Origin: Adhaeribacter aerolatus
GTDB lineage: Bacteria; Bacteroidota; Bacteroidia; Cytophagales; Hymenobacteraceae
Assembly (NCBI RefSeq): GCF_007991635.1
Contig: NZ_BJYS01000005.1
Coordinates: forward strand, 1 to 64,000
Direction: 5' to 3'
Length of the DNA: 64,000 nucleotides
Position 1 is the stretch's first letter, and each line of letters begins with the position of its first letter. This document shows, one piece after another, positions 7,749 to 64,000 of the stretch. The notes beneath the pieces were generated by a model that had not been told where the DNA came from, searched no databases, and was given only the letters and a program-made list of their open reading frames with translations. The position numbers and the translations under genes are program-made.

Positions 7749-7794
7749 TAAGGTACGAAATAAGTAAATCCAGAACAAAAAATTCTTATTTTTA

Positions 7795-14533: not shown

Positions 14534-14602
14534 GCTGTAAGGTTGGTCCAAAACCATTCTATCCGTAACAAAACTCCAGACGAAAAGATTGGTTTTCCGG
14601 CG

Positions 14603-14610
14603 CAAATTTA
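14603..14610 (-). promoter_or_regulatory. Candidate -7 element for uvrA
   Basis: The minus strand reads TAAATTTG followed by CGCCGG, matching the Bacteroidota TAnnTTTG -7 consensus about 70 bases before the uvrA ATG. A TTG lies 24 bases further upstream, slightly beyond the usual -33 spacing. Confidence 0.45.
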
Positions 14611-14776
14611 CGAATACATTACCGGAATAGGAAGCAATGCTTTTTACCTTTTGGTTTACCGGCCTGAAAAACAAATAAATACCTAAAACCTTGGTTCTCT
14701 GCCCATACTTTTGTAACGTAGTATCAGCTAACACGTAAATTTTAAGTCACTCACAATTTAAACAAACGCTAAAACT

Positions 14777-14920
14777 ATGGGTAAAGGAGATAAAAAATCC
14801 AGAAAAGGTAAATTAGTTAAAGGATCGTTCGGCAATAGCCGTCCGCATAAACCAACCAAGAAAACCGAAGAAAAAACAGCCACCCCTAAAAATGCTGCGG
14901 CTCCTGCCGCTACGAAGTAG
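14777..14920 (+). CDS. Small ribosomal subunit protein Thx
   Basis: A 47-residue, very basic protein missed by length-filtered ORF calls. It begins MGKGDKKSRKGKLVKG and continues with SFGNSRPHKP, the signature of the bacterial Thx/bTHX family that binds at the top of the 30S head. An Ala/Pro/Thr/Lys-rich tail follows. The ATG is unambiguous, and the gene is followed within 25 bases by a good rho-independent terminator, so it forms its own short transcript. It is divergent from uvrA with 243 bases between start codons. Confidence 0.9.
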   Translation: MGKGDKKSRKGKLVKGSFGNSRPHKPTKKTEEKTATPKNAAAPAATK

Positions 14921-15359
14921 TTCATTTTTCTTCCCGGAAAATAAGCCCTCTCTGTTTACCGGGAGGGCTTCTTGTTTTTTGCTATTGCCTTCTTCCGTGA
15001 ATGGTATAACCAACTACATTAGTTTCTGAAAATTGGTAGTAATTAAAATTAAAACCGTATCTAAACTATAACTAGCCTGCATCTGCGTTCCTAATTCCTG
15101 AAACTGGGTGCGTTGCCTCTATAGCTAAATTTTAATTATTCTAATTCCTACCGTTTCACCCTATAAATAAATTACGCCAACCTTACCCTAAAAAATGGGT
15201 AAAATATGCCTGTTTAGCTTGTCTGAAAAGCAAAATATGCCCAAGCTTAAAACATATTCATTCCGCAGTAAAAAATGGTGCTGAAAGAAGAAAATTTTAA
15301 TTAAATTTAATCGTTTCCATAAGAAACCCAATAATCCAACCGATTACAGAATAACGCAT
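14921..15359. other. Gene-free leader region before the SusC gene
   Basis: After the Thx terminator the interval is AT-rich. A short ttaccc/gggtaa hairpin lies at 15183-15202 and a direct repeat of aaaatatgcc at 15201-15210 and 15232-15241. No convincing TAnnTTTG promoter element was found. A 15-codon ATG frame at 15238 is not supported as a gene. Confidence 0.5.
14942..14980 (+). terminator. Thx terminator
   Basis: aagccctc at 14943-14950 pairs with gagggctt at 14963-14970, followed by cttgtttttt. Confidence 0.85.
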
Positions 15360-18300
15360 ATGAATAAAACCATTTACACAAAAGTAAAGGGTAAAGTATT
15401 TCTGCTGCTGCTGGCCACCATCTGCCCGATGGTAACCGCAAGTGCCTATGCTTTTAAAGAAAAATCTGCAAATTTAGTTTTAGCCGATATTGTAGTTAAA
15501 GGTACCGTCCGTATTCAGGGGAGCGGGGGCCAACCGGCCGAAGCCATGCCTGGCATTAACGTTATAGAAAAAGGCACCCAGAACGGCACAATCACCGATG
15601 CCCAGGGCAATTTTCAGCTTGCCGTGAAAGACAATGCCGTGCTGGTGTTTTCGATGGTTGGTTATCAGTCCCAGGAAGTACCGGTTAGCAACCGCACCAC
15701 CATTAACGTTACGCTGGCCGAAGGCGGCAAGAGTTTAGAGGAGGTAGTGGTTACGGGTTATCAAACCATCGACCGAAAAATGTTTACCGGCTCTGCGGCT
15801 TTGTTAAAGGCTGGTGACGCCAAACGAGAAGGTATTACGGATGTTAGCCGCATGCTGGAAGGCCGGGTAGCCGGCGTATCGGTGCAAAACGTATCGGGTA
15901 CTTTTGGTGCCGCGCCTAAAATACGCGTGCGGGGGGCTACATCCATTACCGGCGATAATAAACCGTTGTGGGTAGTAGATGGGGTAATTCTGGAAGATGT
16001 AATTAATATTTCGAATGAGCAGTTATCAACCGGCGACCCTTCTACCCTGATTGGTTCTTCGGTAGCCGGTTTAAACCCCGACGATATCGAAAGTTTCCAG
16101 ATTCTGAAAGATGCCTCCGCCACTGCGATGTACGGTGCCCGCGCGATGAACGGGGTAGTTGTTATTACCACCAAAAAGGGTAAAATTGGCAAACCCATTG
16201 TATCGTATACCGGTAATTACAGCAGCTACTTAAAACCCACCTATCGTTCTTTTGATATCATGAACTCCGCCGACCAGATGTCGGTGTATTTAGAACTGGA
16301 ACGGAAAGGCTGGTTAAACCATTCGGATGCCTCGCGCCGGCAGAATGGGGGTGTTTTTACGAAAATGTACGATCTCATAAACTCCTACGATGAGGGTACC
16401 GGCACATTTGGTTTACAGAATACCCCAGAAGCACGGGCTGCTTTTTTAAACCGCTACGCCCGCACCAATACGGATTGGTTTAATACGTTGTTCCGGAACT
16501 CTTTTATGCAGGAGCACTCGTTAAGCATCTCGTCCGGAACCGAAAAATCGCAGCTATATTTTTCTACGAGCTATTTACAGGATAACGGCTGGAGCCTAGC
16601 CGACCAGGTGAAGCGCTTTACCGGAAACGCCCGGGCCAACTTTAATATTTCAGATAAAATATCGATTGGCTTAATTTCGCAAGGTTCTATCCGGGATCAG
16701 CAGGCACCCGGCACGGTAGGCCGCATCAGCAACCCGGTTACCGGGCAGTACGACCGCGATTTCGATATAAATCCGTTTAGCTATGCCCTGAATACCAGCC
16801 GCACCTTAACGGCTTACGACGAGAATGGCAACCGCGAGTACTTCCGCCGAAACTTCGCCCCTTTTAATATCCTGGACGAGATTGAAAACAACACGCTGGA
16901 CCTGTCGTTGCTGGACCTGAAACTACAGGGCGATTTTTCTTATAAAATCCGGAATAATCTGAAATATTCGTTTCTGGGGGCCATCCGTTACGCCAAAACC
17001 AACCAGGAACACCGGGTGCGGGAAAATTCGAATATGGCCAATGCTTACCGGGCAGCCGGCGATGCTACCGTACAGGCCGCCAACAAATATTTATACCGCG
17101 ACCCCGACAACCCCGAAGCCCAGCCAGTAGTGGTGCTGCCTTACGGCGGTTTTTACAATACCACCGACGATAATATTGTAAGCTATAACTTCCGGAATAA
17201 TTTAGAATGGGATAAAACCCTGAACGAGGTTCATACTTTGCGCTTTTTTGCATCGCAGGAACTTAGGTATGCCGACCGCCAGAACAAAGTTTTTAATGGC
17301 TATGGTTACCAGTACGACAAAGGCGGCGTACCCTATATAGACTATCGTATTGTTAAGAAAAACGTGGAGGGTAATTTTAATTATTACGACATGAACATGC
17401 GGTACGACCGGTTTCTGGCGTATATGGCCAATGGCGCTTATTCGTACAGAGGCAAATACAACCTAAATGGTACCGTTCGTTACGATGGCTCTAACCTGCT
17501 GGGAGAGGCCCGCACGGCCCGCTGGCTACCCACCTGGAACATTAGCGGTTCCTGGAACCTGGATACCGAACCCTTTATGGAACGCTTTGCCGGTATTGCC
17601 AACCGCTTAACCTTACGTGCTACCTACGGCCTTACCGCCAGTATGGGCAATGCTACCAACTCCAGTTTGGTATTACAAAATGCCAGCACCCGCCGGCCTT
17701 ACTTATCAGAAGTTGAATCGCAGATTAGTATTCAATACCTCGAAAACTCAGAACTGACCTGGGAGAAGCAGTACGAAACCAACATTGGCCTGGATGCCGG
17801 TTTGTTTAACGAACGGATAAACTTAACCATAGATGCTTACCACCGGAACGGTTTCGACCTGATTGGGGAACTGCGCACCTCCGGTATTGGCGGAGAAGCC
17901 ATTAAAACGGCCAATTATGCCGATATGACTTCGCAAGGAGTGGAATTAACGCTGGGGGGTAATGTCATAAACCAAAAAGATTATGGTTTCCGCACCCAGC
18001 TTACGGCTGCTTACAACAGAGGCAAAATTACCAACTTAAAAAACGAGCCTAATATATGGGCATTGGTTACCTCCGATGGTGGACCAAAAGAAGGTTATCC
18101 GTACCGCGGTTTGTTTTCCATCCCTTTCGCAGGGCTCGATCCTACCACTGGTTCGCCCTTGTTTAAAAATAATGAAGGAGAAAGCACCGGCAATATTTAC
18201 CTACAGGGACAGGAAACCGACTTTTTAAAGTACGAAGGGCCCATCGACCCAATTTTCACCGGCGGCTGGTTTAATGCATTTCGGTACAAAAACTTTTCTT

Positions 18301-50430: not shown

Positions 50431-52083
50431 TTATTTTATCACCTCCGGAATAGGCTGGCCAATACTGCCACTCGGGGCCTGAATACGTAGCAAGGCTGCT
50501 ACAGTAGGCGCAATATCCGACATGTGTGTAGGCCGCGTTAGCTTCCCTTGGTTAATACCCCAGCCCATCCAAACCAACGGAATGTGCGTATCTACCGGGC
50601 TCCAGGTGCCGTGCGAAGTACCGGTGGCATTAGCAGAGCCACTGTACCAACCTGGCTTCATAAACAGCTGAATAACGCCGCTGCGCTCCGGGTGGTTACC
50701 TCTTAACATACGGGTCCGGAGTTCATCCGGAATATTGGCCGTCTGCACCTCTTTTACATCTATGGCGTACGCTACACCCTCCTGCTTTTCCATAAACTGC
50801 ACACAATCTTTCCGGATGGCACTTTCATCCAATTTATTGCTGGCAATTAACGGATTGTTCAGGTTAACCTGGTAATTACTGAGGCTTAAAACAAGTTTAC
50901 CTACTTTATATTTAGCTTCCAGCATACTGTTCAGTTCCTTTAACTGGGCACTGGCGGGCCAGAATCCACCCGGAATTTTGTTATCAATTAAAAAATTAGG
51001 ATTGTGCGATGCACCGTGGTCGGCTGTCAGGAAAACGGTGTAATTGCCTTTACCCAGCGTTTTATCCAGCGTAGCAAAAAAATCGCCTAATTCTTTATCC
51101 AGGCGCAAATACATATCTTCTACCTCAATGGCATTGGGACCAAACCGGTGGCCAATATAATCCGGAGTAGATAAACTCACGGCCAGAAAATCGGTTACAT
51201 CCCGCTGTCCCAGTTGTTCGTTTTGAAGAGCTGCTTTTGCTAAGTCTAGCGTTAAGGTATTACCCGCCGGCATAGAGCGGATAACACTTACTCCCTTTGA
51301 TTTGAATAACTCCTCCGTCTTTACCGGAAACACGGGGCCGGCAGACGCTACAAAAGCGCCTTCGTAACGGGTATTATCGGCGGTGCTTTGCACGTAAGTA
51401 TTTATCGGATAAAGCGTGGTCCAGTCTTGTTGCAGGTATTTTTGGGGTAACTTTTGCGCATTAAACTGCTGCACCCAGGCCGGCAATTCTTTCATATACC
51501 AGGTGCTGGTAACCCAGTTGCCGCTGGCATCGTCGAACCAGTACGCCGCATTGGCACTATGGCCGGCCGGTAAAATAGAACCCCGGTCTTTCAGGGCAAT
51601 GCCAATTACTTTAGAACGGAAATTCGTAGCCAACCGCAACTCGTCGGTAACGGTGCTGGCTAGCAGGTTGCGCGGCGACATTTTGCCGGCCGCCGCTGTG
51701 GTACCCACGGGTTCCACCGCATTGTCTTCGGTGCAATACATCGATTTACCAGTAGCTTGTATAATAAAATCGTTGCCGGCAATACCGTGCAAAGCCGGCA
51801 CCGAACCGGTATAAACCGTACTATGACCAATAGCCGTTACAGTGGGCAAATAATCAATACTCGTGTTTTCGCAGGTAAAGCCTTCATTCAGCATTCGCTT
51901 AAAGCCGTTTTCGCCGTAGCGGTCGTAGTACCGGTACAGAAAATCCCACCGCATCTGGTCTACCATTAGCCCCACTACCAATTTTGGCCGGGGCAATGTA
52001 GCTGTATTCTTTTTTGGTTTCTTCTGAGCCGAAGCAGCAATAATCAGGGTGAAATAAAGGAGGAAAATCAGTCTTAATCTCAT
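50431..52083 (-). CDS. pafA: Alkaline phosphatase PafA
   Basis: Secreted phosphate-irrepressible-type alkaline phosphatase of the alkaline phosphatase superfamily; PafA enzymes hydrolyse phosphomonoesters outside the cytoplasm. 550 residues with a signal peptide ending SAQ at about 20. VDQMRWDF at 41-48 gives a metal-binding Asp, PTVTAIGHSTVYTG at 80-93 includes the threonine nucleophile, GIAGND follows, and ALKDRGSILPAGH at 163-175 contains the Lys and Arg diagnostic for PafA. Later ligands are in STPDYIGHRFGP and TADHGASHNP. It is the last gene of the phosphohydrolase/SusCD block. Confidence 0.94.
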   Translation of the reverse strand: MRLRLIFLLYFTLIIAASAQKKPKKNTATLPRPKLVVGLMVDQMRWDFLYRYYDRYGENGFKRMLNEGFTCENTSIDYLPTVTAIGHSTVYTGSVPALHGIAGNDFIIQATGKSMYCTEDNAVEPVGTTAAAGKMSPRNLLASTVTDELRLATNFRSKVIGIALKDRGSILPAGHSANAAYWFDDASGNWVTSTWYMKELPAWVQQFNAQKLPQKYLQQDWTTLYPINTYVQSTADNTRYEGAFVASAGPVFPVKTEELFKSKGVSVIRSMPAGNTLTLDLAKAALQNEQLGQRDVTDFLAVSLSTPDYIGHRFGPNAIEVEDMYLRLDKELGDFFATLDKTLGKGNYTVFLTADHGASHNPNFLIDNKIPGGFWPASAQLKELNSMLEAKYKVGKLVLSLSNYQVNLNNPLIASNKLDESAIRKDCVQFMEKQEGVAYAIDVKEVQTANIPDELRTRMLRGNHPERSGVIQLFMKPGWYSGSANATGTSHGTWSPVDTHIPLVWMGWGINQGKLTRPTHMSDIAPTVAALLRIQAPSGSIGQPIPEVIK

Positions 52084-52184
52084 AAGAGCATTTTTAAACT
52101 ATTGATAATATTCTGAATGATTAGTTCTAAAATTTAAAATAAAAATATACAATATATGCAAATCAAAAAAACCAGAGCTATACC

Positions 52185-52206
52185 ACAAACCGCAATAGCG
52201 GTTTGT
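52185..52206. other. Short perfect hairpin upstream of pafA
   Basis: acaaaccgc at 52185-52193 pairs with gcggtttgt at 52198-52206 around aata, about 100 bases before the pafA ATG. Possible 5' leader structure. Confidence 0.4.
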
Positions 52207-52231
52207 CTGCTATCCGCAACCTGGCAATAAT

Positions 52232-52277
52232 AAAGACTGTTTAAGCAGCAAAATCTAATGCTTTTTAAACAGTCTTT
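52232..52277 (-). terminator. Hairpin between the EEP-fold gene and pafA
   Basis: aaagactgttta at 52232-52243 is complementary to taaacagtcttt at 52266-52277, with agca/tgct inside. It follows the EEP-fold gene on the minus strand, giving a possible terminator before pafA. Confidence 0.6.
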
Positions 52278-52347
52278 TGTAAAAAATTTAATACCTCTGG
52301 GTTAATAAGACGCTATTATACCTAAAAGAAACTTCGGAGTTAAAAAG

Positions 52348-53202
52348 CTATTCTTTTCCGCCATAGGTCAGATCCACTAAAATCGGAAAATGGTCGGACG
52401 GGAATTTACCGTGGTACGTATCGGTCAAAATGCCCCATTTATTAACTTTAAAATGATTTGTAACGAAAATATGGTCGATAATCTGGTCGCCATCTAGCTT
52501 ATTTCCAAAAGCATTAAAGGAAGCATTATTGGCATAAGGATGAGACACTTGTTTGTACGTATCTTTTAAAACACCCGAGTTGGCAATAGTCAGGTACCAC
52601 TCACTTTGCTGATCGCCGTTAAAATCGCCGGATAAGATTACCGGCTCTTTACCCGCAATCTCTGCTATTTTGCGTAATAATAGTTTACTGCTCTCGCGGC
52701 GGGCTACCTTGCCCTGGTGGTCGAAATGCACGTTAAAAAAGTAGAACTTCTTTTTATTCTTGATGTCCTGCAAATAAACCCAGGAAGCAATGCGGTTACA
52801 GCAGGTAGCATCCCAGCCCAGCGAAGGCTTATCGGGTGTTTCGGATAACCAGAAATCACCTTTTTTCAGGAGTTTAAACTTATCTTTCTTGTAAAAAATA
52901 GCGGAGTGTTCGCCCTTCTCTTTACCATCATCGCGGCCCAGGCCATAGCGGGCATAAGCCGGCAAAGCATTACTAATATCGTCCAGCTGGTTTTTCAAAG
53001 CTTCCTGCGTACCAAAAATATCGAAGTCGTGGAAGCGTATTAAGTTGGCTACCACCGGCGCCCGGTCGGCCCACAGGTTACCCTCATCGTTGGCATTGGC
53101 ATACCGCACGTTATAAGAACCAACCGTAAGCCCTTGGGCAAAGGTTTGGCCTATTAGGCTAAAGACTAAAAGAAAAGTAAGTAATGTACTCTTAAATTTC
53201 AT
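52348..53202 (-). CDS. Secreted endonuclease/exonuclease/phosphatase-fold hydrolase
   Basis: 284 residues with a signal peptide ending FAQ at about 23, so it acts outside the cytoplasm. Family motifs in order: SYNVRYAN with Asn31, GTQEAL with metal ligand Glu67, NVHFDHQG, SGDFNGD, IDHIFVT and SDHFPI at the C terminus. Members include phosphodiesterases, DNase I-like nucleases, inositol-polyphosphate phosphatases and sphingomyelinases; this one cannot be placed by eye. It follows SusD by 120 bases and precedes pafA, suggesting release of phosphate from a larger imported or surface substrate. Confidence 0.9.
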   Translation of the reverse strand: MKFKSTLLTFLLVFSLIGQTFAQGLTVGSYNVRYANANDEGNLWADRAPVVANLIRFHDFDIFGTQEALKNQLDDISNALPAYARYGLGRDDGKEKGEHSAIFYKKDKFKLLKKGDFWLSETPDKPSLGWDATCCNRIASWVYLQDIKNKKKFYFFNVHFDHQGKVARRESSKLLLRKIAEIAGKEPVILSGDFNGDQQSEWYLTIANSGVLKDTYKQVSHPYANNASFNAFGNKLDGDQIIDHIFVTNHFKVNKWGILTDTYHGKFPSDHFPILVDLTYGGKE

Positions 53203-53243
53203 TGGGCAATTCTGTTAGGTTATTTTCAAAAGTAAATTAAGAT

Positions 53244-53308
53244 AATATTCCCCGAATGTATTTTTACTTGTGGTATTATCCAAAATATAAACACTTTCGG
53301 GGAATATT
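53244..53308 (-). terminator. Hairpin between SusD and the EEP-fold gene
   Basis: aatattccccgaa at 53244-53256 is perfectly complementary to ttcggggaatatt at 53296-53308. It may attenuate readthrough from SusCD into the hydrolase gene. Confidence 0.6.
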
Positions 53309-53322
53309 TTTAGGGTAAAAAG

Positions 53323-55146
53323 TTACCAGCCGGTATTCTGCCCAAGACTCGGATTGGTGAGTAAATGTGATTCCGGAATAGGATAGAAATATTTCCGATC
53401 TTCCCATTTCCGGGGAATATTGGGCAACCAAATAACCTGACCGCTGTTACCATTAGTTAATTTGTAAGACTCAGTAGCTACATTTACATAGGTAACGCCG
53501 CTAATCTGATTTGTTGGGGTCTGTGTGTAAAAGTACACATCAGGTGTACCGTCTTCATTTAAGTCCATTAGTTTATTTGCTTCGGGCACATAAATACCAA
53601 GCCAGGGCATTTCCATGAGTTCTCCCCTTTTCCAACGAACAATATCATAGAACCGGAATCCCTCCAGGGCCAGTTCAATGCCTCTTTCACGGCGCACTTC
53701 CAATATTACAGGGTTCGAAATATTCGGAAAGTAAGTAGACTGCAGGTAAGGATCAACTACTGTAGGCAAGGTAGTTAACCCGCCCGTAATACCCGCCCGG
53801 CTACGCAAAGCCCCAATTGTTTTGGACCAATCGTCGTTGGTAAGTGTACCCAGTTCGGCTTTTGCCTCGGCGTAGTTCAATAATATTTCGGCGTACCGGA
53901 AAATAGATACGGCATTGGTATTATTATTTCCGCCATCAATCGCCACATTATCCACACTCCACTTAATGGGCTGATAGCCGGTGTAAGTATAGGTAAAAGC
54001 AGGCGGTGCCGCTACCAGGTTTCCGCCGTTGGTTCGCTTGTAACTGCCGGTCCGAATAGTCTGGGCTAACCTTTTGTCCCTGCCTTTTACTTCGTCCATA
54101 AACGTTTGGGTCTGATAATCGGCTTCATTCGTATAAGGAGTACCATCAATATTTAAATAGGTATTAATAAAGGGCCGGATAAAGCTGAAACGGGTGCCGG
54201 TGGTAGCGCTGGTAAAATACCAGTTAGCCGCATGTCGCACGTTTAAAGCGGTACTGGATACCACCGCCAGCATAATTTCCGCAGAAACCGGTGCATCGCT
54301 GATAAATAATTGCCGATACGACAAATCAGTCCCGCCACCACGGTGTAAGCTAAACCGTCCATTGGTCATAACCGTTTGGGAGGCTTCAGCAGCCGCCGTT
54401 AACCAAGTGTTGGCGGTATTGACCAAGCCTTTGTCGGTGTGGTATTTCCGGAATGTACCCTCAAATAAGGCAATCCGTGATTTCAGCGCCAATGCCACAT
54501 CTTTGGTAATTAGAGTGCGCGAAGGGTCGTTAATTGTCTTAATATTCTGGATAGCGAAATTGATATCAGCGAGTACGCTGTCCATTACCAAAGTACGAGG
54601 ATCGCGGCTGGCATATAATTTGGGGTCGGCTACGTCCAGGGGTTTGTTTACCCAGGGCACATCGCCATATCTCTTAACCTTTTCAAAATAAAACCAAGCT
54701 CTGAAAAACCGGGCCAGCCCATTATAGTGTTGTCTTACATCGGCAGCAATTTTAGGATCTTTATTATTTTCCAGAAAGAAATTAATATTGCGCAAGGTAC
54801 CCCAGCCCCAGTTCCAATCAGCACCGATGGCGATGAGGTCGTAGCCGGAGGCCGACGTATTATCGCTCGTCCGGGAACTATACACATTGCCTGCCCGCAG
54901 AAAATCCGGAGCATTTCGCCGAGTCGAGTAATCCGATATGGCATCGGCCTGGTGAATATTATTGGCGCTGGGCAACCAGTCGTAAAACGAGTTGGCATAT
55001 AACTGTAATCCGCTTTCGCTGCCGAATACGGCATCTTTGTTGGCGGTATCAACCGGCACTTCCTCCAGGTCGCACCCTGCAACCATAAAGGCACAGCATA
55101 AAATGAGCCAGCAGTAACTAATCTTTTTACTAAATATATCTTTCAT
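53323..55146 (-). CDS. SusD/RagB-type lipoprotein, phosphohydrolase block
   Basis: 607-residue surface lipoprotein, on the long side for SusD. The lipobox is Cys25 (FMVAGCDLEEVP). ARFFRAWFYFEKVKRYGDVP near 135-155 is the classic SusD helix, and RYAEILLNYAEAKAELG and RRERGIELALEGFRFYDIVR are the C-terminal SusD blocks. It starts 25 bases after the SusC gene at 55172-58414 and clearly pairs with it. Confidence 0.95.
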   Translation of the reverse strand: MKDIFSKKISYCWLILCCAFMVAGCDLEEVPVDTANKDAVFGSESGLQLYANSFYDWLPSANNIHQADAISDYSTRRNAPDFLRAGNVYSSRTSDNTSASGYDLIAIGADWNWGWGTLRNINFFLENNKDPKIAADVRQHYNGLARFFRAWFYFEKVKRYGDVPWVNKPLDVADPKLYASRDPRTLVMDSVLADINFAIQNIKTINDPSRTLITKDVALALKSRIALFEGTFRKYHTDKGLVNTANTWLTAAAEASQTVMTNGRFSLHRGGGTDLSYRQLFISDAPVSAEIMLAVVSSTALNVRHAANWYFTSATTGTRFSFIRPFINTYLNIDGTPYTNEADYQTQTFMDEVKGRDKRLAQTIRTGSYKRTNGGNLVAAPPAFTYTYTGYQPIKWSVDNVAIDGGNNNTNAVSIFRYAEILLNYAEAKAELGTLTNDDWSKTIGALRSRAGITGGLTTLPTVVDPYLQSTYFPNISNPVILEVRRERGIELALEGFRFYDIVRWKRGELMEMPWLGIYVPEANKLMDLNEDGTPDVYFYTQTPTNQISGVTYVNVATESYKLTNGNSGQVIWLPNIPRKWEDRKYFYPIPESHLLTNPSLGQNTGW

Positions 55147-55171
55147 AATTAATTTATTAAGGACTAAGCAA

Positions 55172-58100
55172 TTAAAATGTGACGGATAAACCCAGATTTA
55201 GGCTTTTCAGCAGGGGGTAATTATAACCATCACCAGCATTGGAACTGGTAAACAACTGGTCCGAGGGAGCGGTTGCATTCTCCACATCCACATTATCCAG
55301 TATCCGGTAAAGCGGCGACCAGGTCCAGAGGTTTTCGCCGGACAGGAATACCCGGCCACCTTTTACTACTTTTAGGCGGGCTACCAAACTCGGCGACAAG
55401 TTGTAGCCTATCTGGATATTTTTCAGGCGTACATAGGCCGCATTCATTACATATTTGGTCTGCTGCTCCCGTAAGGTGCCACCACTCCGGTTAGCCAACC
55501 GCGATACGTATCTCGGGAAAAAGGAATCCGGATTCTCGGGCGACCAGATGATGCCTTCTTCTAAGTGCCATTTAGGAATATCGCCGTACGGCCGGTTATA
55601 CTGTCCCCAGAACACATTCGATTCAGCCAGCGGGTACCAATCCTGCTTGCCAACGCCCTGAAAAAATGCAGAGACAAAAAAGTTGCTCCAATCGGCACCC
55701 AGGTTTATGCCGTAGGTGTAACGCGGGGCATTATTACCAATAATTACCCGGTCGCCAGGATTAGCTACGGTGTTGTCGCCGGGGCTAATTTTACCGTCGC
55801 CATTTACATCTTTAAATTTAATATCGCCGGGTAAGTATTCGCCCCTGGAGGTAGAAAGAAATAAACTTTGGTTAGCATGGCTTTTAATTTCATCGGCCGA
55901 AGTAAAAAAGCCTTCGGTTACATATCCCCACATCTCGCCCACCTGCATGCCTTCGTAATAATCATTCAGGAATTTATTGGGGTTATTGTATTTTAATATT
56001 TTAGCCTTGTTATCGGCCAGATTAAAACCAACCCGGTAATTAAATGGCTTAGAACCAACCGAAAACTGATCGCGCCAGTTTAGGGTGAATTCCCAACCGG
56101 TGGTTCTTAAATCGGCATAATTGCCCTTGGGTGAAGTAGCACCGAAAATGGCAGGCAAAGTCATGCCAATGGTGTACATATCGGTTGTTTCCCGAACATA
56201 GGCATCGCCGGAGAACTGTAACTTACCCGAAACCATGGCCAGGTCGGCCCCAATATTCTTGGTAGTGGCAGTTTCCCAGGTAAGGCCGCTGGGCAGTACG
56301 GTTGGCCGGCTGGTTTTCTGGGGCAGGATGCCGTTCAGGATGCGGCCGGATTGCGAGATGTTAAAGGTTTCCTGAAAGGCATACGAGTTGATATTACCAT
56401 TACCCAGCGAACCATAAGAAGCCCGGAATTTTAAATCTGACACAATATTATCGGGCACCGGCCAGAATGGCTCCTGCGAAACGCGCCAGCCTACCGAAAC
56501 CGAAGGGAAAAAGGCATATCTCTCGTTAGCAGGAAATTTAGAAGAACCATCGTAGCGTCCGTTAAATTCTACCAGGTACCGGTCGCCAAAAATATAGTTT
56601 AGCCGCGAAAAACCACCAAAAATCTGCCATCTTTCGTAACCACCGCTGGTCAGAATAGATTGGCCTAATGCTAAATTTATATCGGTAGCATCTTCAAAAA
56701 TAAGCCCGTTCCGCTGCGTTAAGTTGCGCTGAAACGTAGACTGCTCGTAGTTGGTACCCACCATTGCTTTAAAATAATGCTTTTCCCGGAAGGTATTTTC
56801 GTACTCGGCATACAGGTTAGAAGCATTATAATTGGTCCGGTCGTTCACATTCCGGATGTCGTTGTACTGGGTACCCACGTACTCAACTACGCCGGGGGCC
56901 GTGCTGTAAGGCACCTGCACCCGTTTGGTAAATTCATCCTGGAATATTTTCTGGAATGTAAAATTACCAATTACCCGGATTTGGTTCTGGAATACTTTTG
57001 ATTCAAAACCAGTGGTATTCCGAAGAATGCTTCTGCGGGTGTCGATGCCGTTTTTACCGTAATAGAAATCGCCAACAGTATAGGCTGCCGAGTGGGTAAG
57101 CGTTCCATCGGGGTTAAGCATGGGGGCCAGCACATGGCCTTCATCGGCAATATTCCGCCAGATACCGGAGCCCTCACCTACGTTTAATGGGTTGTGATAA
57201 TCCCGGTTCGAATAATCAAAATTGTTGTTTACTTGCAACCAAGGGAACAGTTCGATAGCCCCTCTGGCCCGGAGATTATACGTTTTGAAATCATCTGAAT
57301 TATAACGGAATAAACCTTCCTGCCCCAGAAAACGCCCCGAGATGGCGAAATTAGCTTTATCGGTACTTCTGGATAATGAAATATTATGCTGATTGGTAAA
57401 AAGTTGGTCTTTGTACAAATGTTTATACCAATCGGTATTTTCATAATATACATATCTGCCATCGGGACCAACTTCGGTCTTGGGCAGACTGGGGTCCTTG
57501 GATCTTCTTTCCAGTTCCTTTAAATATTCCTGCGAAAAAGTTAAAGTTTTATTTACATTTTGCGGGTAGGTCCCCTCCCAATTATAAAAAGACTCGTTAA
57601 ATTTTGTAGCCCATAAAAAGCCATCGGTAACATAATTGGGTAGTACAGTAGGTTCTTTGGTACCAAAAGTGGCATCGTAAGTAACCGCAAAAGCATCTTT
57701 AGCGGGTGTTTTTGTAGTAATCAGCACCACGCCAAAAGCGCCCCGGGCACCGTAAATAGCCGCCGAAGCCGCGTCTTTCAGCACCGAAATAGAGGCAATA
57801 TCGTTGGGGTTAAGCATACTGGGATCACCTTCCACACCATCTATCAGAATTAGCGCATTGCCGCCCTGCCCAATAGAAGTAGTTCCCCGGATGTTGATAT
57901 TAGGCGAAGCATTGGGTTTTCCTTCAACCATGCGGATGTTTACGTTGGGCAATACGCCCTGCAAACCTTGGGTTGCGTTGGGGAGCGGCCGATTCTCAAA
58001 TGTTTCGCTGCCTATCTGGTCTACTGCACCCGTTAAGTTACCTTTTTTCTGGGTACCATAACCCACCACTACCACTTCTTCCAACGATTTGGCATCGGGC

Positions 58101-58414
58101 AGCAACTTAATATTTATGACAGTACGGTTATTAATAGGTACTTCCTGGGTTGTAAAACCTATAAAAGAAACTACTAGCATATTAGAACCGCTGGGCACTT
58201 GCAAGGCAAAATTACCTTCAGGATTGGTGGTAGTACCAGTATTAGTACCTTTTACTAATACTGTTACCCCCGGAAGCCCTTCTCCCATTTCGCCGGTAAC
58301 TTTACCAGTAACATTTTGTACTTGTTGAGAAATGGCAGCTATACTGTAACATAAAGCCCACATTAACAACAAACCGGGTTTCCATTTAAAAAAAGGTAGA
58401 GTAGTTTTTTTCAT
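55172..58414 (-). CDS. SusC/RagA-type TonB-dependent importer, phosphohydrolase block
   Basis: 1080 residues. Signal peptide to about 30, then a carboxypeptidase-regulatory-like domain (VTGKVTGEMGEGLPGVTVLV, SFIGFTTQEVPI), TonB box EEVVVVGYGTQ near 112-122 and a plug with LQGVLPNVNI, INIRGTTSI, LILIDGVEG, SVLKDAASAAIYGARG and GVVLITTK. The barrel ends in LKSLNLGLSVTF with terminal Phe. It directly precedes its SusD partner and follows the metallophosphoesterase gene by 180 bases. Confidence 0.95.
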   Translation of the reverse strand: MKKTTLPFFKWKPGLLLMWALCYSIAAISQQVQNVTGKVTGEMGEGLPGVTVLVKGTNTGTTTNPEGNFALQVPSGSNMLVVSFIGFTTQEVPINNRTVINIKLLPDAKSLEEVVVVGYGTQKKGNLTGAVDQIGSETFENRPLPNATQGLQGVLPNVNIRMVEGKPNASPNINIRGTTSIGQGGNALILIDGVEGDPSMLNPNDIASISVLKDAASAAIYGARGAFGVVLITTKTPAKDAFAVTYDATFGTKEPTVLPNYVTDGFLWATKFNESFYNWEGTYPQNVNKTLTFSQEYLKELERRSKDPSLPKTEVGPDGRYVYYENTDWYKHLYKDQLFTNQHNISLSRSTDKANFAISGRFLGQEGLFRYNSDDFKTYNLRARGAIELFPWLQVNNNFDYSNRDYHNPLNVGEGSGIWRNIADEGHVLAPMLNPDGTLTHSAAYTVGDFYYGKNGIDTRRSILRNTTGFESKVFQNQIRVIGNFTFQKIFQDEFTKRVQVPYSTAPGVVEYVGTQYNDIRNVNDRTNYNASNLYAEYENTFREKHYFKAMVGTNYEQSTFQRNLTQRNGLIFEDATDINLALGQSILTSGGYERWQIFGGFSRLNYIFGDRYLVEFNGRYDGSSKFPANERYAFFPSVSVGWRVSQEPFWPVPDNIVSDLKFRASYGSLGNGNINSYAFQETFNISQSGRILNGILPQKTSRPTVLPSGLTWETATTKNIGADLAMVSGKLQFSGDAYVRETTDMYTIGMTLPAIFGATSPKGNYADLRTTGWEFTLNWRDQFSVGSKPFNYRVGFNLADNKAKILKYNNPNKFLNDYYEGMQVGEMWGYVTEGFFTSADEIKSHANQSLFLSTSRGEYLPGDIKFKDVNGDGKISPGDNTVANPGDRVIIGNNAPRYTYGINLGADWSNFFVSAFFQGVGKQDWYPLAESNVFWGQYNRPYGDIPKWHLEEGIIWSPENPDSFFPRYVSRLANRSGGTLREQQTKYVMNAAYVRLKNIQIGYNLSPSLVARLKVVKGGRVFLSGENLWTWSPLYRILDNVDVENATAPSDQLFTSSNAGDGYNYPLLKSLNLGLSVTF

Positions 58415-58594
58415 AGAGCATAAATTTTTATTAATCTTAATTTCTTCCAGGTTTTAGCAGACACTCCTGCATGTTCAGATAAGGACACGTTTTTTATTTT
58501 AAAATAATCTTAAACAACTTATTATAATTTTTATATAATAGTATTTTTGAAGGCAACTTGTGCACAAAATAAGCCTTCTAAAGGCCTCTCGCTT

Positions 58595-59851
58595 CTATTT
58601 AAGCAATTCAAAATAATCAATTTTTTCATTATTTTCATTGTAAACTTCGTACATAATGCGTCTTCCTTGTATTTTCATTATAGCGAAATTGTACATTTTA
58701 GCCGAAGAAGTGAAAACCATAGATGGCATATTGCTCCCGCCTAAACCTTGCGGTGAGCCACCAGCAGTACCATTAGTAATATAAACAGTGCCATTCGGGT
58801 TTTTATAAACATGCTTATTGGTTAATGGTATAACCTGATTTGCCCGGATAGCTTTATGACGTTCGTATACATGCCGATGTCCGGCCAGGGCTAAATCAAC
58901 TTTATACTTATCTAATAAAGGTGTAATATGTTCCTGCCAGCCTTTCACATGACTCCAACCAAAAGAATAAAGCGGGTGATGCATATAAATGACAATCCAG
59001 GTAATATTTTTATCCTGCCGGGCTTTCGCCAGATCAGCTTCCAGCCACTGGTATTCCGCTGAACCTTTTGCATACCGCCAATTGGTCTGCTTAGCTTCTT
59101 CTACCCCTTTGGCATGACCCGAATTAATAGCGACAAAATGTGTATTGCCGTAGTTAAACGAGTAATCCGTGTCCTTACCAGGCAAATTAAATAAATCGTA
59201 AAAAATTGGGAAAGGCTCCTGGAAACCAGATTCGTCTAACTCATTATTTACATCGTGATTGCCCGGCACCGGCATAAAAGGAGCAATAACATTAATGGGT
59301 TGCGTGGTCTGGAACAGCCGTTGCCAGCTTGGTACCAGCGAGCCAGTATTTACAATATCACCCATGTGTATGGTAAACTGCACCGGGTATTTACGCATTT
59401 GCTGCACAATGGCATCTGTCTTCTCAAATTGGGTATTAAATTCATTATCCTGCGTGTCGCCCCACGCCCCTACTATAAATTCCTTCTGGCTGCCTAATGG
59501 CGGTGCAGTTTTAAAAGAGTAAACGTCACTCCAGCCATCCTGGTCAGAGCCACATTGGTAAAAATAAGTGGTATTGGCTTTCAGGTTATTTAAACTTGCG
59601 TGATAGATATACATTTTACCATCGGCCAGAAATTTATTTATAGCGGGTTGGGCCAGATTTAGCTTTTTATCGGTGCCATATTTTACCCGGCTTTGGGTCT
59701 GATTCTCACTTGCCCAGGTTACTACCATGGTGTTGGCAGCGGCATTTTTTTCCGAACTGTTCCAACTCAAATGGATCTGCTGTGGCTGGGCAAAAGAAGC
59801 AGTAACATTTCCCAGCACTACCAGAATAAACAGAATTAAATATTTTTGCAT
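58595..59851 (-). CDS. Purple-acid-phosphatase-like secreted metallophosphoesterase
   Basis: 418 residues with a signal peptide ending FAQ at about 22. A fibronectin-III-like N-terminal domain (about 25-118, IHLSWNSS, MVVTWAS, TTYFYQCGSD) precedes the metallophosphatase domain: GAWGDTQ with Asp132, MGDIVNTG with Asp165, PGNHDVN at 196-202, YMHHPLYSFG and GHRHVYER. The architecture is that of purple acid phosphatases, but the tyrosine of the GDxxY motif is replaced by Asn168, so the purple charge-transfer centre is not expected. It lies between two SusCD pairs on one strand. Confidence 0.9.
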   Translation of the reverse strand: MQKYLILFILVVLGNVTASFAQPQQIHLSWNSSEKNAAANTMVVTWASENQTQSRVKYGTDKKLNLAQPAINKFLADGKMYIYHASLNNLKANTTYFYQCGSDQDGWSDVYSFKTAPPLGSQKEFIVGAWGDTQDNEFNTQFEKTDAIVQQMRKYPVQFTIHMGDIVNTGSLVPSWQRLFQTTQPINVIAPFMPVPGNHDVNNELDESGFQEPFPIFYDLFNLPGKDTDYSFNYGNTHFVAINSGHAKGVEEAKQTNWRYAKGSAEYQWLEADLAKARQDKNITWIVIYMHHPLYSFGWSHVKGWQEHITPLLDKYKVDLALAGHRHVYERHKAIRANQVIPLTNKHVYKNPNGTVYITNGTAGGSPQGLGGSNMPSMVFTSSAKMYNFAIMKIQGRRIMYEVYNENNEKIDYFELLK

Positions 59852-59870
59852 GATTTATAAGTATTTTATC

Positions 59871-59936
59871 AAGGCAACCGCACAAACCTAAGCCAGCCAT
59901 GGATTGTCTGGTATTCATTTTTCGTACGGTTGCCTT
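59871..59936 (-). terminator. Hairpin between the second SusD and the metallophosphoesterase
   Basis: aaggcaaccg at 59871-59880 is perfectly complementary to cggttgcctt at 59927-59936. It separates the upstream SusCD transcript from the metallophosphoesterase gene. Confidence 0.55.
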
Positions 59937-60017
59937 ATAATTTTACAAGAAGGTAATTCAAATATATGGTATTCAGAAACCGGCAGGAACTGGCCAAATC
60001 CGCCCCTAGTTGCGAAA

Positions 60018-61523
60018 TTATTGCCAGCCTATATTTTGCGGTTTAAGATTAGGATTTGCATCCAATTCGCTCTGCGGTATCGGCCACAACATGTACTGCT
60101 CATTAAATATTACCCCGCTTTCATTCCGGTACACCAAAGCATCTTCAAAATGGCCTGTTTTTAAATTATAAACCTTCCGGGTGCGCTGAATATCAAAATA
60201 AGCTTTATTCTCGAATGCCAGCTCATGATAGCGTTCGCGCCAGATGGCCTCCCTGAATTCCTCTTTTGTTAAACCGGCGAGAGGTGGCAAATTTGCCCTT
60301 TTACGGATCAGGTTAACGGCATCGTAAGCGGCCTGGCTAGGGCCATTTACCTCATTAGAGGCTTCTGCAAAAGTTAAAAGAACTTCCGGGTAACGAAGAA
60401 TCGTAAAGTTTTGGTCTTCATTGGCATCTCCCCCGGAGCCGGCAGCCTCTACCAACCAATATTTATACAAAGCATATTCGCCAAACTGAATAATAGCGGA
60501 GCTGTTCTTTTTAGTGTATTGCGTAAAAAAGAATTGTTTCTCCTGGGCTCTTTTATCATTAGGCTCGTACGATTTTACAAATTCGCTTCTGGGCATAAGA
60601 GCCCCATATTCATCTAAAAGAGAAATGCCTATTTTTGATGGTGAGATAGCTTTTATTATATCATTGGTTCTTATTCCTGTTTGGTATTGAACCTGAAAAA
60701 TCAGTTCGCCCTGGTTTTTGTGAGCCCTGTCGTGTAAGAAATAATAATCTGTAAATAAGCTATACCATCCTGCGTCTATAACTTCTTTAGCCTTATCTGC
60801 GGCTAGGGTGTAGTAAGCTGCCCCTTTATTTAAGGGTTTCCCGGCCATTGTTAAATAAACACTGGCCAGTAATGATTTTACGGCGCCTAAAGATGCTTTA
60901 CCTTTTTTGTCGGTATTGGGCATTCCCGACTTCTCAGCGGCTTGCAAATCGCTTACTACTAGCTCATACACCTTTTCTTTCGGCGAACGCATGGGATAAA
61001 GATCAGGACTGGTAAAATTTATGGCATCTGTAATTAAAGGAATATCGCCGTAAAGCCTTACTAAATAATAATAGTACAACGCCCTCAGAAAATAAGCTTC
61101 TCCCAGTAAAGAATTCTTAGTCTGTTCGTTCATTGTTATGGCCGGAATGCGGTTGATAGCAACATTAGCATTGGCGATGCCATTGTAAAAACCAACCCAC
61201 ACGGTTTTAAACACCGGCTCTATAGCTGAATTGTTATGACGAATTAAACCATTATTATATAAACTCTGGCCAAGGGTAGTAGCATGACCTACCGGAAACT
61301 CAATGGAGGTCCAGGGCGACTCGCCATAGTTAGCATTGGCAGAGGTAAGCATGTGTAAGGTGGGATAAATGCCATTTACTGCTGCTTGCGCCTGGGCCTC
61401 GGTGGTAAAATAATTTTCGAGGGTAAGAGCCGATAAGTTTTGCTCATCCAGAAAATCCTTTTTGCAACCCGTTATAAAAGATATAAGCACTATTATTAAT
61501 GCTGTTTTATTTATGCTTCTCAT
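60018..61523 (-). CDS. SusD/RagB-type lipoprotein, right-hand pair
   Basis: 501 residues; lipobox Cys20 in SFITGCKKDFLDEQ. NSLLGEAYFLRALYYYYLVRLYGDIP near 136-161 is the SusD core helix pair, and RYPEVLLTFAEASNEV, WRERYHELAFENKAYFDIQR and the final NPNLKPQNIGWQ are standard SusD C-terminal blocks. It starts 34 bases after its SusC partner. Confidence 0.95.
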   Translation of the reverse strand: MRSINKTALIIVLISFITGCKKDFLDEQNLSALTLENYFTTEAQAQAAVNGIYPTLHMLTSANANYGESPWTSIEFPVGHATTLGQSLYNNGLIRHNNSAIEPVFKTVWVGFYNGIANANVAINRIPAITMNEQTKNSLLGEAYFLRALYYYYLVRLYGDIPLITDAINFTSPDLYPMRSPKEKVYELVVSDLQAAEKSGMPNTDKKGKASLGAVKSLLASVYLTMAGKPLNKGAAYYTLAADKAKEVIDAGWYSLFTDYYFLHDRAHKNQGELIFQVQYQTGIRTNDIIKAISPSKIGISLLDEYGALMPRSEFVKSYEPNDKRAQEKQFFFTQYTKKNSSAIIQFGEYALYKYWLVEAAGSGGDANEDQNFTILRYPEVLLTFAEASNEVNGPSQAAYDAVNLIRKRANLPPLAGLTKEEFREAIWRERYHELAFENKAYFDIQRTRKVYNLKTGHFEDALVYRNESGVIFNEQYMLWPIPQSELDANPNLKPQNIGWQ

Positions 61524-61557
61524 ATTAATTTCTCTAATAAATTATTTAGAATACAGG

Positions 61558-64000
61558 CTAGAAGTTAACATTCAGGCCAGCCATAAATGTCCGGGGTTTA
61601 GGATATTCATAATAAGTAAATCCTTGCGAGAAGGAAAACTCTTCATATGTGGTCACTTCGGGGTCATAGCCGAAATATTTCGTTTTCAGGAAGAAATTTT
61701 GACCGGAAGCATAAATCCTCAGATTGTTTAACCCAATTTTAGAAGTAATGGATTGGGGAAGGGTATAACCCAAAACCACGTTTTTTCCGCGAATAAAAGA
61801 CCCATCTGAAACTTTGCGGCTATCCATATAATAATTATAACCGGCTGCAGTAGGTCTTACCTGTTCAAGTTCTGCATCCTGGTTTTCGGGGGTCCAAGCA
61901 TCTAAAACGGTGGCAAAACTGTTGGCAAGCCCCTGCCGCGCTTCACCGGAATTTCTGGCCTGGTTAAAAACATCATTGCCTTGCGAGAACTGAATTTCTA
62001 AAATGAAATCGAAATTTTTATACCGGAGGCTATTAGCAAAAGTGCCATACAGGTCAGGAATACCTTTACCTAAAATTACCCGGTCCAGCCCGGTAATAAC
62101 ACCATCGTTGTTAATATCCTTTATTCTTAAATCGCCTGGTTTTTGGCCATAAGTTGCGGCTTTATCGGCTTCGGCAGTGCCCCAAATGCCATCGCGTAAA
62201 TAACCATAAAAAGAACCGGCCGACTCTCCTACTCTCAGAATCAGTCCTTCTTTGGTACCATACAGAATATCTTCGTTATTAACCCCTAACGCCGTAATCT
62301 TATTTTTTAAAGTCGATATATTGAAATTAGTCGACCAGGAAAAAACCGAATTCCTGACATTGACAGTATTTAAGGAAAATTCGAAGCCTCTGTTTTCCAT
62401 GCTGCCAATATTTCTGGTTACTATCGTATAGCCGCTGGTAGCCGGCACTGGTGCATCATACAACAGGTCGTGGGTCTTTTTAACAAAATAATCTGCTTCA
62501 ACAGAAATCCTGTTATCTAATAATCCTAGATCTATACCAACATCAAATTGCGCTGTTTTTTCCCATTGCAATTCTGGATTAGCCAACCGGCCAATAGCCG
62601 AGCCGGACGCTCTAATACCACCAAAAATATAAGAATTGGTACTTAAGTTAGCTTGCGATTTATAGGAACCAATTTCAGAATTACCAGTAAGGCCATAACT
62701 TCCGCGTAATTTCAGGTTAGATATGGCACTGCTTTTCATTAAGAAATCTTCATTGGATATTCGCCAGGCAGCCGCAGCAGAAGGGAAAAAAGCGAATTTA
62801 TTATTTGCCCCGAACCTGGAAGATCCATCTGAACGCCCGGTTACCGTAAACAAATATCTTTCCTTAAAATTATAATTTAATCTACCAAAGTAAGATTGCA
62901 TTTGAAAAGCATTTGTCGAAGAATTGGGCGCCAAAGGAGTTGCACCGGCACCAAGGTTATTATAAGAATAATAATCATCGGGCATTACACTGGTTATAGC
63001 TGCCCAGTTCAGGCTGTTGCTTTTCTGAAGCTCAGTACCCAAAAGCATACTAATGGCGTGGTCTTCATTAATTACTTTATTATAATTTATTCGGTTCGAC
63101 CATTGCCAGAACTTAGATTCGCTGCTGGTAATTCTAGAATAGTTCTTGCCTAACCCACCCTGCAAATCGGATTTGGTAGTTTTAAAATAGGGGTTAATGT
63201 TGTTACCAATATTTACTCCTAGCGTAGAAGTAAATTCTAAATCCTTAATAATTTTGAAGTTGGCATAAGTGTTGCCATTAAAAACATTTGAGTTGTATAA
63301 TAAATTGTTTTCGTAAATCTGCGCTAAAGGATTATCCCCCTTTTCCAGGCCGGCATAATCACCGCGGTAACCATAAGTTCCATCGGCATGTTTATATGGT
63401 ATAAACGTTACCATTTCAACCAGTTGGCGCAGCGAATTATTTGAGCCAACATTTTCATCAACCCTCCTTTCGCGGTTATTAGCATAACTTAGGTTCATAC
63501 CTACTTTCAGCCAATTCTTCATTTGCTGATCTACCACCGCCCGTACATTATACCGTTTCTGAAAACTTTCTTTTACAATACCTTGTTCATCGGCATAACC
63601 TAAAAACAATCCGTAATTGGTTTTATCATCACCGCCTGTAAAAGATAAATTATGGCTTTGGCTAATAGCTTTTCTGGTAGTTATATCCTGCCAATCAACA
63701 TCGTATATGGGTTGCGGCACACCGTTTTCGTCCAGGGTAAAAAGCTCCCGGTTTCCAAGCGTATTATCAACCAGATAATTCTTCCTTTTCGTTACCGGAT
63801 TCGGGTACTTTCCGGCCGCAAAACCAGCCGGATCAAATTTTGGTGCATTCCTATATTGCTCCTCTTCAATAAATAAGAATTCTTTCGAATTCATTACATC
63901 GTATTTTCTATCATTAGGCAGGTAACCCAGGCTTACATAATTATCATAACCAACTAATTTGGCACCTTTTTTACCTCTTTTAGTAGTAACAATTATTACC
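61558..64000 (-). CDS. SusC/RagA-type TonB-dependent importer, partial at the right edge
   Basis: The reading frame is open from the stop at 61558 to the window end, so the 5' part of the gene is missing. The first visible residues are VIIVTTKRGKKGAKLVGYDN, the end of a SusC plug where GVVIITTKRG normally sits, so roughly the signal peptide, regulatory domain and most of the plug lie beyond the edge. The internal ATG at 63894 is not the true start. Barrel features include NLSFTGGDDKTNYGLFLGY, TGRSDGSSRFGANNKFAFFP and DLRIKDINNDGVITGLDR. It ends RTFMAGLNVNF. Confidence 0.93.
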   Translation of the reverse strand, partial: VIIVTTKRGKKGAKLVGYDNYVSLGYLPNDRKYDVMNSKEFLFIEEEQYRNAPKFDPAGFAAGKYPNPVTKRKNYLVDNTLGNRELFTLDENGVPQPIYDVDWQDITTRKAISQSHNLSFTGGDDKTNYGLFLGYADEQGIVKESFQKRYNVRAVVDQQMKNWLKVGMNLSYANNRERRVDENVGSNNSLRQLVEMVTFIPYKHADGTYGYRGDYAGLEKGDNPLAQIYENNLLYNSNVFNGNTYANFKIIKDLEFTSTLGVNIGNNINPYFKTTKSDLQGGLGKNYSRITSSESKFWQWSNRINYNKVINEDHAISMLLGTELQKSNSLNWAAITSVMPDDYYSYNNLGAGATPLAPNSSTNAFQMQSYFGRLNYNFKERYLFTVTGRSDGSSRFGANNKFAFFPSAAAAWRISNEDFLMKSSAISNLKLRGSYGLTGNSEIGSYKSQANLSTNSYIFGGIRASGSAIGRLANPELQWEKTAQFDVGIDLGLLDNRISVEADYFVKKTHDLLYDAPVPATSGYTIVTRNIGSMENRGFEFSLNTVNVRNSVFSWSTNFNISTLKNKITALGVNNEDILYGTKEGLILRVGESAGSFYGYLRDGIWGTAEADKAATYGQKPGDLRIKDINNDGVITGLDRVILGKGIPDLYGTFANSLRYKNFDFILEIQFSQGNDVFNQARNSGEARQGLANSFATVLDAWTPENQDAELEQVRPTAAGYNYYMDSRKVSDGSFIRGKNVVLGYTLPQSITSKIGLNNLRIYASGQNFFLKTKYFGYDPEVTTYEEFSFSQGFTYYEYPKPRTFMAGLNVNF

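Follow-up and report, generated by a model that had tools for sequence, protein, structure and literature searches.

The right-hand end of a 64,000-nucleotide window of Adhaeribacter aerolatus DNA (positions 1 to 64,000 of contig NZ_BJYS01000005.1) carries a minus-strand run of nine genes, in the order extracytoplasmic function (ECF) sigma factor, FecR, SusC1, SusD1, a purple acid phosphatase (PAP)-like metallophosphoesterase, SusC2, SusD2, an endonuclease/exonuclease/phosphatase (EEP)-fold hydrolase and PafA, seven of which lie inside the window. The run is probably two phosphate utilisation systems (PUS) in tandem followed by pafA, PUS being the name given in 2020 to proposed SusCD-like systems for organic-phosphorus uptake (PMC8115612), and would serve the uptake of phosphate esters with exported phosphohydrolases. 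It is a composite of two modules lying side by side, module A (sigma-FecR-SusC1-SusD1-PAP), which is rare, and module B (SusC2-SusD2-EEP), which is old. Gene neighbourhoods show that the SusCD family of module B stays next to phosphohydrolases, with the partner enzyme changing between unrelated families. The genes are as follows:

50431-52083, minus strand: PafA, a phosphate-insensitive phosphomonoesterase adjoining module B (NCBIfam equivalog alk_phos_PafA NF042991, 766.6 bits against a cut-off of 650).
52348-53202, minus strand: EEP, the exported EEP-fold hydrolase, third gene of module B (PF03372, 9e-12).
53323-55146, minus strand: SusD2, outer-membrane lipoprotein of module B (PF07980; GC-lipobox visible in the N-terminus).
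55172-58414, minus strand: SusC2, TonB-dependent transporter of module B (TIGR04056, 812.7 bits; no STN domain matched).
58595-59851, minus strand: exported PAP-like metallophosphoesterase that ends module A (PF16656 and PF00149).
60018-61523, minus strand: SusD1 of module A (PF07980).
61558-64000, minus strand: SusC1 of module A, which crosses the window edge and reaches contig position 64992 (TIGR04056, 574 bits on the in-window part).
Contig 65126-66367, minus strand, beyond the window: FecR of module A, upstream of SusC1 (PF04773 and PF16344).
Contig 66489-67067, minus strand, beyond the window: ECF sigma factor of module A, upstream of FecR (PF04542 and PF08281).

The seven same-strand genes, with their two SusCD pairs and three exported enzymes, lie where the original prediction had placed them, and its statement that the block holds no glycoside hydrolase or polysaccharide lyase was borne out by Pfam, which found no match to such families in the seven window genes, FecR or the sigma factor. 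The Sulfatase model PF00884 matched PafA only, and weakly (26.1 bits against a cut-off of 25); the equivalog of that protein is PafA. The block is thus not a polysaccharide utilization locus (PUL) in the sense of a SusCD pair with at least one carbohydrate-active enzyme (CAZyme) or comparable glycan-degrading enzyme, and it has the make-up of a PUS, with phosphomonoesterase or phosphodiesterase genes alongside a SusC/SusD pair in place of CAZymes. In full, SusC1 is a 1144-residue protein with an N-terminal STN domain (PF07660, 1.9e-12).

Relatives of module B (loci and genomes are referred to by L and G numbers) were collected by searching named genomes with six SusD2 sequences and keeping the best 80 of at least 394 matches; the seeds of this search came via EEP neighbours, and loci of one genus are not independent. 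The 80 SusD2 relatives are 53-87% identical and come from many genera of Bacteroidota, with one record labelled as a gammaproteobacterial metagenome-assembled genome (MAG). A SusC2 relative precedes SusD2 in all 80 loci, and an EEP gene follows it on the same strand in 64, a count that is biased upward because the seeds were found through EEP neighbours. In 62 of these the EEP was recognised by open reading frame (ORF) and hidden Markov model within 1 kb; the remaining two, L084 and L134, were picked up by tblastn or because the ORF overlaps another. At 64/80, the placement of EEP after SusD2 is more than chance. A FecR cluster is present in 39/80 loci and a sigma cluster in 37/80, and besides SusC, EEP, FecR and sigma no gene cluster exceeds 8/80. 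The EEP is of the window's type in 59 loci and of a second type in five (L107, L137, L143, L145 and L146); by a simple motif, 5/6 genes of the second type and 3/58 of the first encode lipoproteins.

Several relatives of module B show variations of their own. In L107, L143, L145, L146 and L271, SusC2-SusD2 is followed by the second EEP type, a GlcNAc-2-epimerase-like gene and mostly a major facilitator superfamily (MFS) gene, and SusC is preceded by a DUF5689-like gene; here a sugar seems to form part of the substrate. The module-B relatives in L082, L092, L266 (Runella) and L110 lack EEP and lie next to TIM-barrel genes of the xylose-isomerase-like kind; L082 and L092 additionally carry a Gfo/Idh/MocA-like and an MFS-like gene (some of these by eye). 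At L047:13596-13963 in G006, a SusC2 remnant (fragments 51-75% identical) stands directly before an intact EEP gene, where the importer seems to have been lost and the enzyme kept.

Because the first search was biased to EEP, a second sample was drawn with the SusD2 profile alone, which at 1e-100 matches 23 of 395 phylum genomes. Twenty-nine places outside the window were taken, of which 27 had a co-directional downstream gene, L274 (contig end) and L277 being dropped; L265 and L267 appear identical to L098 and L105 of the first set, and G046 is among the seeds. A phosphohydrolase from one of six families was found within the next two co-directional genes in 19 of the 27 loci: EEP in seven (L265, L267, L269, L270, L271, L273, L280), a calcineurin-like metallophosphoesterase in nine (L279, L281, L282, L285, L287, L288, L289, L290, L291), a type I phosphodiesterase with an alkaline phosphatase in L272, GDPD in L278 and PhoD in L286. 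These searches found none in the other eight (L266, L268, L275, L276, L283, L284, L292, L293). As a control, 40 places of other SusD genes were taken and 35 kept, one lacking an anchor and four a downstream gene. Among the families listed, at least 2/35 control loci had a phosphohydrolase, namely PhoX and a MetallophosC-type-like (metallophosphoesterase-like) gene at L312, 37 of the 62 control Pfam families lying outside those listed; the control downstream genes were led by PKD, GH16 and glucoamylase-like domains. The difference between 19/27 and 2/35 is significant (Fisher p = 7e-8), and would give p = 1e-5 were the control count five. This result supports the view that, across Bacteroidota, phosphohydrolases regularly accompany the SusC2-SusD2 family. 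The original prediction of a phosphorus-harvesting locus holds to this extent, for SusC2D2 and its phosphohydrolases, but not as one conserved locus.

The composite nature of the block is apparent from two relatives that carry one module each. In Adhaeribacter rhizoryzae, the permease-like gene that flanks the run on the right in A. aerolatus is followed directly by SusC2-SusD2-EEP-PafA, and sigma, FecR, SusC1, SusD1 and PAP are absent at that site, while G052, from another family of the order, has sigma-FecR-SusC1-SusD1-PAP together (L059) without module B on a 12 kb contig; the two modules have therefore met. The G052 PAP, 71% identical, is likewise placed after SusC1-SusD1, its SusD1 is 67% identical, and G052 is the only instance of SusC1D1 with PAP seen outside the A. 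aerolatus genome. MAG RYN_302 (L068, G007) reads PAP-SusC2-SusD2-EEP-PafA, with the contig end falling within PAP. PAP itself is rare, with matches of at least 65% identity in 4/59 relatives and, at E 1e-60, in 1/395 class genomes, namely that of A. aerolatus. PafA adjoins module B in 5/80 loci (L067, L068, L069, L101, L107), Pontibacter sp. 172403-2 has SusC2-SusD2-PafA-PAP, and in L072 a PAP at 44% identity stands alongside module B. In Hymenobacter sp. YC55 (L101), SusC2-SusD2-EEP-PafA-SusC-SusD and a phosphatidylinositol-specific phospholipase C (PI-PLC) form a single run, another double importer with several phosphohydrolases.

By sequence and by fold, the window EEP falls within the BT3783-like subfamily. 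Its predicted model (pLDDT 92.5) matched 3mpr and 4c1r, both from B. thetaiotaomicron, in Foldseek with TM 0.87-0.88 and 48-50% identity; 4c1r (TM 0.87, 50% identity) is the mannosyl-6-phosphatase BT3783, also found by phmmer at 8e-78. The next fold neighbours were 3g6s (40%) and 3l1w (31%), followed at 18-20% by the eukaryotic nucleases CNOT6L, TDP2 and Nocturnin, with Foldseek E-values of 1e-16 to 1e-18 for these nucleases as against 1e-38 to 1e-41 for BT3783 and 3mpr. Residues N31, E67, H159, D161, D193, N195, D270 and H271 are invariant over 33 EEPs, which is what a working enzyme should show. The tree places BT3783 inside the module-B EEPs; its nearest companions are two Pedobacter genes, followed by two Chitinophaga genes (support 89/80 and 91/98, not starred), and both of these Chitinophaga loci (L094 and L126) carry a GH92 gene behind EEP. 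The window EEP shares subfamily and a near-identical fold with BT3783 but belongs to a neighbouring clade of 34 rows (support 100/98) and has no mannosidase alongside. BT3783 reportedly lies in a mannan locus, and its activity on mannose 6-phosphate presumably belongs to a glycan context. Because of BT3783, sugar phosphates or phosphorylated oligosaccharides lead as candidate substrates of the window EEP. For the SusCD family as a whole, the variety of enzymes that accompany it in relatives (phospholipases, GDPD, phosphodiesterases) suggests that it handles various esters. Extracellular DNA or RNA, offered as a substrate in the original prediction, was dropped as the leading candidate, the EEP being much nearer in the fold search to the sugar-phosphate phosphatase BT3783 than to nucleases. 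The best match in a fold search with SusD2 was BF3747 (3qnk, 20% identity), which is uninformative on ligand.

The PAP-like protein has the N-terminal PAP domain (PF16656) together with the metallophosphoesterase domain (PF00149). Purple acid phosphatases owe their colour to a tyrosine ligand in a GDxxY motif; the window protein reads GDIVN at this position, and its relatives GDIVN, GDIVN and GDIVD, lacking the tyrosine. PafA contains the strings PTVTAIGHST, AGNDF and KDRGS, which presumably include the T, N, K and R residues of the active site. EEP, PAP and PafA have signal peptides without a cysteine or lipobox and no obvious C-terminal sorting domain (by eye), and for these reasons all three are most likely soluble in the periplasm. 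Since the enzymes look periplasmic, import of a dephosphorylated remainder, as had been proposed, becomes less likely, and import of the phosphorylated molecule followed by periplasmic dephosphorylation is favoured.

Upstream regions of the relatives carry a repeat that points to phosphate control. Phytase is present in 20/31 genomes of the related set, and TTAA-N7-TTAA, in a form like CTTAACAATTTGTTAATG, stands before 9/20 phytase operons (mostly receptor, a protein of about 420 residues, phytase), any other TTAA spacing occurring at most twice. In Flavobacterium johnsoniae, phosphate depletion induces the phytase and its receptor (PMC8115612, Table 1). A matrix built from six distinct boxes of phytase operons was applied with a threshold of 9 within 250 bp of the module-B operons, in 31 hand-chosen loci (no FecR label, intergenic space present) and in 43 others, some without FecR, six of the 80 being dropped for want of upstream DNA. 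Scores of at least 9 were reached in 16/31 and 16/43 module-B regions as compared to 20/208 other promoters of the same loci. When the half-sites were shifted, counts fell to 1-8 in the first set and 0-7 in the second, indicating that enrichment is confined to the spacing of the phytase boxes. Dinucleotide shuffles averaged 3.6 and 4.4, and one shuffle of the second set got as high as 10; that set gave 15 rather than 16 in this run because the scan ends slightly earlier. In the phylum sample 12/27 loci reached a score of 9, the GH92-bearing Chitinophaga loci scored 15.3 and 15.0, and in the module-A relative L059 a box before sigma scored 13.6, with overlapping half-sites.

A strict-box search was made in three genomes. 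One of seven places in the A. aerolatus genome lies 123 bp before Porin_O_P-PstS-PstC-PstA-PstB-PhoU (score 13.7), and in Pedobacter sp. B4-66 a box precedes a DUF47/PhoU_div gene and a PitA-like gene whose match falls below the model's cut-off. Bacteroides fragilis is mentioned as having PhoB and a Pho box upstream of pst (PMC3547664). We identify the TTAA-N7-TTAA repeat, with moderate confidence, as a putative PHO box, and the module-B operons of many relatives probably belong to the phosphate-starvation response. PhoX, tried as a control, matched in 5/31 genomes, two of the matches being weak, and a hexamer repeat search at period 11 gave no common word. A TTAA-N6-TTAA form was seen in 9/31, half of these in Pedobacter. 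In Pedobacter L118, L123, L124, L136 and L141 this form, one base shorter than the PHO-box-like one (period 10), lies upstream of SusC2 and just upstream of a TAnnTTTG promoter-like site.

Several observations weigh against reading the window block as two tandem PUS. No box scoring 9 or more was found before any gene of the window locus, the best being 6.7 (sigma, SusC2) and 7.8 (PafA); the four such scores in the whole 17.4 kb all lie inside genes, one shuffle giving eight, and a bare TTAA-N7-TTAA 99 bp before SusC2 scores low. Genome-wide, the strict box showed no overall excess over a reversed control (8 vs 16 in the A. aerolatus genome, 9 vs 16 in G084, 16 vs 11 in G086), and the genes that follow it mostly have no link to phosphate. 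The PstS-like genes of 26 relatives, taken as a positive control and mostly matching below the family cut-off, showed no enrichment of the box (0/30 and 1/30 for spacings 6 and 7). EEP is missing behind SusD2 in 16/80 module-B loci. Three of these have another phosphohydrolase nearby (in L069 a type I phosphodiesterase on the upstream side and PafA with PAP on the downstream side, in L072 a PAP, in L133 an upstream type I phosphodiesterase), and the other 13 have none among the genes viewed, L109 and L119 having been viewed in part and four having short flanks. Three Aquirufa loci carry a GH130-like gene in place of EEP, and several relatives keep EEP without an adjoining SusC2D2 (L043, L044, L045, L048). 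Relatives of SusC1D1 mostly lack PAP, and beside the nearest other SusD1 (46-51% identical) none was present in the four stretches viewed (L061, L062, L063, L066). The sole characterised EEP relative found, BT3783, acts on mannose 6-phosphate (4c1r title). The original prediction had named SusCD pairs without the phosphatases in most relatives as evidence against itself; this is largely the situation of the first pair, G052 being the one other place where SusC1D1 and PAP were seen together, and not that of the second. Overall, the earlier interpretation is partly supported and right in outline.

Since the one tested EEP relative found is a mannosyl-6-phosphatase, the main rival explanation is a system for a phosphorylated glycan, such as fungal phosphomannan, in which EEP and PAP would strip phosphate caps for glycosidases encoded elsewhere and the gain would be carbon, not phosphorus. 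We regard this as unlikely, although much is consistent with it: the 50% identity of EEP to BT3783, which itself sits within module-B EEPs near two Chitinophaga genes, the GH92 behind EEP at exactly those two loci, and two GH92 genes elsewhere in the A. aerolatus genome. Another SusCD locus of that genome (L147, G000:C8:136001-156000) combines two tandem PAP-like metallophosphoesterases with GH43, a GH125 alpha-mannosidase and a glutaminase-A-like gene; ECF sigma/FecR/STN control suits substrate sensing; and a sugar 2-epimerase lies behind the second EEP type in four loci, with an MFS gene in three. However, GH92 stands directly behind EEP in just 2/80 loci and the window block has no glycosidase, GDPD, PI-PLC, phospholipase C (PLC), alkaline phosphatase and PhoD are partners ill-suited to one phosphomannan, and PHO-box-like repeats precede the operons, including the GH92-bearing Chitinophaga loci.

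It is improbable that the block is a chance meeting in which only SusC2-SusD2-EEP forms a unit and both module A and PafA were inserted without any functional tie. The absence of module A at the same site in A. rhizoryzae and the scarcity of PAP orthologues (4/59 relatives, 1/395 class genomes) would fit, as would the description of F. johnsoniae PafA as a constitutive orphan (PMC8115612, Table 1), but PAP occurs again with module B in Pontibacter sp. 172403-2 and in L072, PafA does so in 5/80 loci, and Hymenobacter sp. YC55 has its own double run. Such genes meet repeatedly, and selection is therefore favoured over chance. Feeding on extracellular nucleic acid or nucleotides is more improbable still. 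Nucleases and nucleotidases are found among proteins with the EEP, PAP and type I phosphodiesterase folds, and CNOT6L, TDP2 and Nocturnin are distant fold neighbours of EEP; against this, the E-values place EEP far nearer BT3783 and 3mpr, and no nuclease or nucleoside gene recurs beside module B in the 80 loci.

In the favoured reading of two tandem PUS, the TonB-driven SusC channel with its SusD lid would import a molecule bearing phosphate esters and too large for porins. Phosphate would then be freed in the periplasm by PAP for module A, by EEP for module B and by PafA as a general phosphomonoesterase, the enzyme families being those observed and their place and substrates those expected, and would enter the cell via Pst or another transporter. 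The substrate would be sensed at the outer membrane by a chain of ECF sigma factor, FecR and STN-type SusC1; control in the window strain probably runs through these proteins, given that the search turned up no PHO box upstream of any gene in the locus. The rightward extension called for in the original prediction thus yielded the regulators, ECF sigma and FecR, but no good PHO box before the locus, the PHO-box-like repeats being carried by the relatives. Some classical PULs are also under ECF sigma/FecR control, and the block resembles them in its SusCD pairs, STN-bearing SusC1, FecR and ECF sigma, but unlike them contains no glycoside hydrolase or lyase.

The idea of SusCD systems for phosphate esters is already known from PUS, and the EEP variant of it is widespread. 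As described in PMC8115612, F. johnsoniae PUSI-PUSIV/PusCD likewise place a SusCD pair beside phosphomonoesterases or phosphodiesterases rather than CAZymes; PUSI (ECF sigma, SusCD, PF00149 and PF16670 enzymes) is induced by phosphate depletion only, and module A resembles it in the ECF sigma and PF00149 enzyme and resembles PUSII and PUSIII in FecR. Module B differs, as the F. johnsoniae PUS in Table 1 of that paper list no EEP, and the EEP Fjoh_0074 is given there as an orphan, predicted in the outer membrane, without notable induction; its loss left phosphatase activity unchanged, according to PMC8812569. PusD is called polyphyletic in PMC8115612, whereas here one SusCD family was traced across many partner enzymes, PUS being compared by their published description. 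The SusC-SusD-EEP module and the breadth of its SusCD family were not found in the literature searched, most subscription papers lying outside its coverage.

The wider regions examined hold further features. The plus strand to the left of the block holds two DMT-type permease genes and one Dus-like gene, and an amino-acid permease-like gene lies to the right (by eye). Elsewhere in the genome, L010 (G000:C5:83001-103000) contains at 2-12110 on the minus strand a BREX-like defence island with PglX-, PglZ-, BrxC- and BrxL-like genes and two small ones, adjoined by a McrBC-like pair on the plus strand at 12427-15883, and near it a retron-like reverse transcriptase gene (L009:17207-18253, plus strand) is followed by genes without assigned function (all by eye). 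At L147, phosphatases stand beside glycosidases in a second SusCD locus.

Beyond the window, we consider it an evenly balanced possibility that one monophyletic SusCD family, which its SusD profile makes recognisable, serves Bacteroidota as an importer of phosphate esters in general, in which importer and PHO-box control are kept and the partner is swapped among at least six unrelated families (EEP, metallophosphoesterase, PhoA, PhoD, type I phosphodiesterase and GDPD), and, jointly with this, that in the window two importers, accompanied by different phosphohydrolases, are stacked in a single run and one belongs to that general family. SusCD systems are usually read as glycan importers, and if a widespread family serves phosphorus, many annotated PULs would need re-reading as phosphorus scavenging. 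Plant-associated Bacteroidetes lack the common organic-phosphate transporters, according to PMC8115612, and if the reading is true this absence would gain a testable answer, for which the SusD2 profile and the PHO-box matrix provide a means of choosing strains and genes to test.

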